Source of the DNA: Lentzea guizhouensis
GTDB taxonomy: Bacteria > Actinomycetota > Actinomycetes > Mycobacteriales > Pseudonocardiaceae
Reading direction: 5' to 3'
Assembly (NCBI RefSeq): GCF_001701025.1
Contig: NZ_CP016793.1
Span: forward strand, 4,650,001-4,714,000
DNA: 64,000 bases
Part shown: positions 35,343 to 35,658 of the stretch, piece after piece
Layout: each line of letters begins with the position of its first letter
Position numbering within the stretch: the stretch's first letter is position 1
Position numbers and translations under genes: made by a program
The notes under the pieces: generated by a model
The model's database searches: none
Told to the model about the DNA's origin: nothing
The model's input: the letters and a program-made list of their open reading frames with translations, nothing else

Positions 35343-35497
35343 TGCCGAAGGAGGTCGTCGTCATCGGCCTGCTCGCGCTGGCGGGCTTCCTGGCCGGTGG
35401 CGTCTACACCACCTGGAAGACGGCGAAGGTGCTGGCGATCATCCTGCTGGTGCTGACCGTGCTCGCGGTCGGCGGCGCGGTGCTCTGGCTGATCTAG
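35342..35497 (+). CDS. 51-aa membrane protein after hisB
   Basis: A short gene starting [11 protein letters not shown] and ending AVLWLI, with two hydrophobic segments (VVVIGLLALAGFLAGGVY and VLAIILLVLTVLAVGGAVLWL) separated by TTWKTAK. The ATG shares its A with the hisB stop (TGATG-type overlap), which strongly suggests translation. Function unknown. Its TAG stop overlaps the left tip of the palindromic repeat at 35496-35658. Confidence 0.75.
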
Positions 35498-35658
35498 TGG
35501 CGGGACTCGTAACGTCGACGGGAAATTCACGCTCAGCAGGCCACCTCGCGGCACCGCCCCCGCGCCCCCACACGGTCCAGTACGAGGGCGCGCGGGCGGC
35601 ACCACGATGCGGCCGTCTGACCGCGAATCACCACGGCAACGTTCCGAGCCGCGCCACT
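35496..35658. repeat. palindromic repeat element, copy A
   Basis: A 163-bp imperfect inverted repeat: tips AGTGGCG and CGCCACT, then arms that pair through the element to a GC-rich inner stem. It shares long identical blocks with copy B at 61276-61439, such as ACGCTCAGCAGG on the left and GGGCGGCACCACGATGC plus CCGTCTGACCGCGA on the right. It starts within the TAG stop of the 51-aa protein gene and ends 26 bp before the TIR gene start. No coding frame is conserved. Confidence 0.85.

Follow-up and report, generated by a model that had tools for sequence, protein, structure and literature searches.

Palindromic elements at TAG stop codons in Lentzea guizhouensis, a probable family of IS630-type miniature transposable elements

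We examined a 64-kb stretch of the Lentzea guizhouensis genome (hereafter, the window) in which two palindromic elements, copies A and B, each begin at the end of a gene (Table 1). Copy A follows a 51-aa open reading frame (ORF) without a Pfam match, which itself stands 3′ of an IGPD-domain gene; ~25 bp beyond copy A a TIR-domain gene probably starts, at a GTG that we picked by eye from relatives. Copy B follows the gene of a response regulator, which it splits from its likely partner, a histidine kinase; in most relatives ~50 bp lie between these two genes, and copy B might lower kinase expression. An initial annotation of the window had described the two elements as a pair whose left tips contain the TAG stop of the preceding gene, that of the 51-aa ORF for copy A and that of the response regulator for copy B, and both the pair and the position of the stops were confirmed, with boundaries good to ~1 base. 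Each copy also folds on itself along almost its whole length, as had been described: predicted RNA folding energies were −91.4 kcal/mol for copy A (z = −4.87) and −127.4 kcal/mol for copy B (z = −13.92), and none of 200 dinucleotide shuffles was as stable in either case. In an alignment of 164 positions, with the TAs counted, the two copies are identical at 130.

Table 1 Coordinates of features in the window, with the observations on which each placement rests
Feature	Position	Strand	Description	Basis
Copy A, left TA	35495..35496	.	Target duplication; supplies the TA of the TAG stop (35495-35497) that ends the 51-aa ORF	Sequence; empty site of relative G013
Copy A	35497..35657	.	Palindromic element, 161 bp, end family F1	Folding; own-genome matches; alignment
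Copy A, right target duplication	35658..35659	.	TA mutated to TT	Sequence compared with empty site of G013
51-aa ORF 5′ of copy A	35342..35497	+		Kept in 23 Lentzea relatives
TIR-domain gene 3′ of copy A	35685..38366	+	GTG start at 35685 likely; start in ORF list 35607	
Copy B, left TA	61276..61277	.	Supplies the TA of the TAG stop (61276-61278) that ends the response regulator	Sequence; ORF list
Copy B	61278..61437	.	Palindromic element, 160 bp, end family F1	Folding; own-genome matches
Copy B, right TA	61438..61439	.		Sequence
Response-regulator ORF ending at copy B	60436..61278	+	True start further in	Response_reg and Trans_reg_C domains
Histidine kinase gene, 99 bp 3′ of copy B	61539..62885	+	Same neighbour in relatives	HATPase_c, HAMP and HisKA domains
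SAM-IV riboswitch	5139..5253			Rfam RF00634, 106.4 bits

Searches of the L. guizhouensis genome with copy B and two other copies as queries gave 62, 82 and 55 match rows (both strands and half-matches included), from which we compiled at least 38 dispersed elements of ~66–177 bp without a transposase gene, together with two split copies. This count is a minimum because the best 40 of 67–81 candidates were scored per search, and four more weak places were left out of it. A chance pair of palindromes is ruled out by the shuffles together with the copy number. The 38 elements fall into two end families: F1, with tips of approximately TAGTGGYGYGRCTCRG, comprises 14 full-length and 9 shortened elements, and F2, with tips of approximately TAGTGCGGTGACCAC, comprises 3 full-length and 12 shortened ones as well as, outside this count, both split copies. 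Shortened copies have lost the middle and kept the tips, and two copies at different genome locations (4152293 and 6813165) are 99% alike.

The split copies were considered as possible ends of an autonomous transposon, which their contents ruled out. One of them (L059; G000:C1:187000-193000) is an F2 palindrome, with halves at 188779-188863 and 190160-190246, whose loop contains an IS30-family insertion sequence (IS). In the other (L060; G000:C1:1833000-1849000), likewise an F2 palindrome, with halves at 1835653-1835740 and 1845800-1845887, the loop is occupied by a ~10-kb element; this element encodes a serine recombinase along with further ORFs, among them one that on inspection looks FtsK-like and one that looks Xre-like, and its junctions have CCAGT in common, as if the apex of the palindrome were its attachment site. 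The serine recombinase gene was present in one of 24 Lentzea genomes, that of L. guizhouensis alone, at E ≤ 1e-40, which leaves no second Lentzea species in which a use of palindromes as its site might be seen.

With copy B as the query, matches were found in 23 of 60 genomes (L. guizhouensis, 23 more Lentzea and 36 from outside the genus), all of them Lentzea; one Lentzea genome (G007) lacked a match to this query and was matched with another copy. That other copy matched 40 of 297 genomes of the host's family, including 24 of 24 Lentzea, in a search that scored the best two candidates per genome. Outside Lentzea, strong matches occurred in 2 of 273 genomes of the family (G199 and G068), and 14 further genomes had short matches (E from 5e-5 to 9e-4). 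Three of these 14 were inspected, and the matches in G268 and G229 look like chance while that in G215 is a tip-like end with CTAG. No title listed from the literature searched (open-access PubMed Central) described this family, and no paper there paired Lentzea with ‘miniature inverted’.

The elements end as N-TA-[G...C]-TA-N, mostly within CTAG, and comparison with empty sites in relatives, proposed with the initial annotation, placed the duplication at the TA. Copies A and B are both absent from their sites in 23 of 23 Lentzea relatives. The stop at site A reads CTAG in 13 of these, GTGA in 6, CTAA in 2, TTAG in 1 and GTAG in 1, and relative G013, whose downstream gene is the same, has a single CTAG in place of copy A, which in L. 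guizhouensis lies between TA and TT. Site B gives no clean duplication in any relative; the gene preceding it ends with GTGA in most of them, and the place is taken by 28 other bases in G007 and by 3.7 kb of other DNA in G017. At a third site (G000:3294852), where a copy lies between two convergent genes, the element is missing in 15 of 23 relatives, and in 10 of these 15 the aligned flanks enclose a single TA and nothing else. As to the question raised earlier, whether TAG is part of the target motif, the TA lies mostly in CTAG and the duplicated unit is the TA.

Among the other relatives, a full-length element occupies the same TA of the third site in three of 23 (G004, G005 and G009), remnants of the tips only are left in G003 (24 bp) and G008 (13 bp), and G006 has CTAG followed by other DNA, with the flanks on two contigs. 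Empty in some species and in others occupied by a full-length, a shortened or a tip-only element, this locus offers a natural series for the insertion and decay of palindromes. Two relatives carry something else there. In G015, a 218-bp element with clade-1 IS630 ends (L428), too small for a transposase and hence a second miniature kind, sits at the same TA, and in G023 the stop is followed by a different hairpin of ~55 bp (L437), unrelated in sequence to the family.

Tips of the palindromes were compared with the ends of IS630 transposons. L150, an IS630-family element of the L. guizhouensis genome (NCBIfam IS630), has a tip that matches F2 at 24 of 28 bases, and may be dead because its HTH and DDE parts are in different reading frames; it fits F2 and not the F1 tips of copies A and B, for which no intact partner transposon was seen in this genome. 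A related transposase (L238) is present in 74 of 249 genomes of the host's family, in 24 of 46 genera. When L150, L238 and 25 more of these loci were put through an automatic end search, 4 of the 27 gave no credible ends, and the remaining 23, mostly from other genomes, matched F1 tips partially, at 17–23 of 28 bases. Among 261 control 28-mers, genomic sites starting with TAGT, the mean was 11.6 for F1 and 10.7 for F2 and the maximum 17 for both, where the F1 scores of the loci are the best of two ends and the controls single sites; in 3 of the 23 loci the two ends agree poorly. The IS630 clades that occur beside palindromes scored 18 of 28 (clade 2) and 16 of 28 (clade 1) against F1, so tip likeness alone picks no single clade. 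A DDE_3 domain had no match at E ≤ 0.001 in 4 of 23 relatives (G004, G012, G015 and G023), which nonetheless carry palindromes.

The palindromes are very probably non-coding, non-autonomous transposable elements (MITEs) of the IS630/Tc1-mariner kind, and their ends, target and relatives suggest, at the level of sequence, that an IS630-type transposase mobilises them. The mobile palindrome of the initial annotation, there called MITE/REP-like, holds up in its first half, given the copy number, TA duplication, empty sites and IS630-like tips, and finds no support in its REP-like half. In the mechanism that we propose, an IS630-family transposase would bind the tips in trans and excise the element, which would then be pasted at a TA with duplication of the TA. 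Insertion of an element of the form G...C into a CTAG stop would restore the TAG at the left end and likewise, where a convergent gene follows, at the right end, and both neighbouring genes would thus keep their stops; together with the loss of insertions inside genes, this would lead to a location at gene ends. Such rebuilding of both TAGs would account, to the single base, for a large hairpin lying on the stops of two genes without evident harm. IS630 itself is said, in the title of a 1991 study by Tenzen and Ohtsubo, to prefer TA in CTAG.

The association with stop codons was assessed against the background of CTAG sites. CTAG was found 11 times in the window compared to 53 expected from dinucleotide shuffles, a depletion of about fivefold. 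At least one end TAG was a called gene stop in 24 of 38 elements vs. 13 of 36 CTAGs outside elements, and both ends were called stops in 9 of 38 vs. 2 of 36, in counts from a simple codon-composition caller that misses the short gene of copy A and includes doubtful ones such as that on the right side of copy B. The palindromes abut TAG because TA and the first G of the element rebuild it, and the bias toward gene ends appears to be mostly that of the target itself, since 13 of the 36 CTAGs outside elements were also called stops. What had been read as targeting of gene ends is indirect: the target is TA, mostly within CTAG, which is scarce in the window and frequently forms a stop codon. A preference for gene ends themselves need not be assumed, and survival outside genes probably helps to place the elements there.

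The same location could also be explained by a family of structured RNAs or bidirectional terminators selected at gene ends, for which mobility would be secondary or past, and we consider this unlikely. It would suit the very stable folds of both copies, the share of elements with an end called as a gene stop, the position of copy B between response regulator and histidine kinase genes, and the pairing of the arms. In 13 of the 14 full-length F1 copies (L104, which has a local duplication, was excluded), standard pairs filled 697 of 715 pair cells and two-sided changes occurred at 12 of 55 pairs, compared to 29–45% of cells and 0–3 pairs in a control with one arm slid by 1–3 columns, which bears out the earlier remark that the arms differ between copies yet stay paired. 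Maintained pairing is, however, expected wherever one protein binds both transposon ends or the hairpin serves as a template for its own correction, and no RNA function is shown by it. Against selection as RNA or terminator stand also the absence of copies A and B in all 23 relatives and of the third copy in 15 of 23, the match of the tips to transposon ends, and the frequency of called stops at CTAGs outside elements. Rfam at gathering scores over the window gave nothing for the palindromes, its sole match being the SAM-IV riboswitch elsewhere. The structured RNA suggested at first is not needed, as the paired changes fit transposon ends, copies come and go between species and an Rfam match at these scores is lacking.

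Far less probable is a MITE that belongs to another IS family and has a four-base duplication, CTAG; for MITEPsy1 the duplication is reported as CTAG or YTAA (PMC3189936). The bases outside the TAs were C and G in 24 of the 31 elements, among 38, with both flanks readable, which resembles CTAG on both sides, but the other seven differ between the sides or from CTAG (C..C 2, T..G 2, T..A 1, G..G 1, C..A 1). Once six elements that touch IS630 on one side are dropped, since the outer base there belongs to the IS, C..G remains in 18 of 25. Because the flanks beyond the TAs vary, TA is the duplicated part and CTAG its usual setting; clean empty sites likewise consist of one TA with a varied next base, and the transposons with matching tips encode IS630 transposases. 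A four-base duplication was rejected on the varied flanks and the single-TA empty sites.

REP-type palindromes are defined by association with a Y1 transposase, and movement by such a REP-associated enzyme is the least probable reading of all. The Lentzea elements are palindromic, lie mostly at gene ends and have been struck by insertion sequences of other kinds, all of which recalls the description of REPs (PMC1525189), but the TA duplication, the IS630-like tips and the whole-length pairing over 66–165 bp argue against it. REPs lie mostly outside genes and have been entered repeatedly by insertion sequences, some of them at the symmetry axis (PMC1525189). The Lentzea palindromes have two such axis insertions, the IS30-family IS and the ~10-kb element, whereas their IS630 copies stand at the outer TA and the palindrome is itself a transposon derivative.

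As IS630-type MITEs, the palindromes have counterparts among known systems. The mechanism of IS630 elements was established from ISY100, with which the palindromes share the TA target duplication (PMC2170065) and from which they differ in having no transposase gene. RUP of Streptococcus pneumoniae, a repeat of 107 bp whose proposed mover is the IS630-Spn1 transposase, resembles the palindromes as a small non-coding repeat with terminal repeats as in an IS630 element and insertion at TA (PMC2229807). Judged by its published description, RUP lacks the whole-length palindromes of up to ~165 bp and the graded shorter forms, and has other tips and a host that is no actinomycete. Correia/NEMIS, ERIC and RPE are also alike by description, as small repeats with TA termini (RPE in part) and long stem-loops, and RUP alone is given a likely driving transposase in the review of small repeats (PMC2229807). 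The initial statement that no named family fits thus remains true for the exact family and not for the kind, which has a name, the IS630-type MITE such as RUP: the family in Lentzea is a new one of a kind already known. Now that the family is defined and has candidate partner transposons, it should be of use for annotation and strain comparison in Lentzea and related actinomycetes.

Copies of IS630 were located relative to the palindromes in L. guizhouensis and its relatives. Each of the seven clade-1 copies in the L. guizhouensis genome lies directly against a palindrome, the junction falling precisely on the terminal TA of the palindrome, and the opposite end, seen for six of them, is at no palindrome. 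Nine CTAGs outside elements in the window correspond to ~1400 genome-wide vs. at most ~80 palindrome ends, and simple arithmetic gives ~1e-9 for seven out of seven by chance, assuming all sites to be equally available. Clade-1 copies abut palindromes in three of four cases in G006, two of them on opposite sides of one palindrome, and abut an IS630 of the L238 kind in G011 and a tip-like end in G005; the ends seen in G001 (two), G018 and G022 have no palindrome next to them. Ten clade-2 ends in Lentzea abut palindromes (G008, G014, G017, G019 and G020), some of which may belong to one and the same copy divided by a contig break. Clade-2 copies in G018 and G002 (both ends seen) and three ends in G020 do not, and those in G016 adjoin each other or contig ends.

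Palindromes of different families share the apex rather than the tips. The CTAG-ended palindromes of G199 and G068 (L402-L405) have an apex in common with those of Lentzea (85–89% over 65–98 bp) and different tips, and the same is true of F1 compared to F2. Across 33 distinct full-length F1 copies, mean pairwise identity was highest in the blocks CGCTCAGCAGGG (0.96) and GTCTGACCGCGA (0.97) and lowest in tip columns 13–24 (0.77), with the first 12 columns near average (0.89). This apex and tip pattern, as far as alignments go, would fit exchange, constraint or chance alike.

A tentative and rather doubtful proposal joins the two sets of observations. The palindromes might serve as shared landing pads, in which the tip of one IS630-type element attracts the transposases of others, so that IS630s of different clades and their miniatures pile up base-exactly and harmlessly at the double stops between genes, and at the same time the conserved apex might pass between families while the recognised tips change, the scaffold thereby switching its driving transposase. 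Since IS630 copies crowd at palindrome tips, their choice of target can be put to the test. The flanks of IS630 are ordinary CTAG sites in most other genera listed. In Kutzneria viridogrisea (L251-L256), clade-2 IS630 copies have a tip-like, CTAG-bounded end alongside at four of five distinct places, and similar elements therefore probably occur outside Lentzea.
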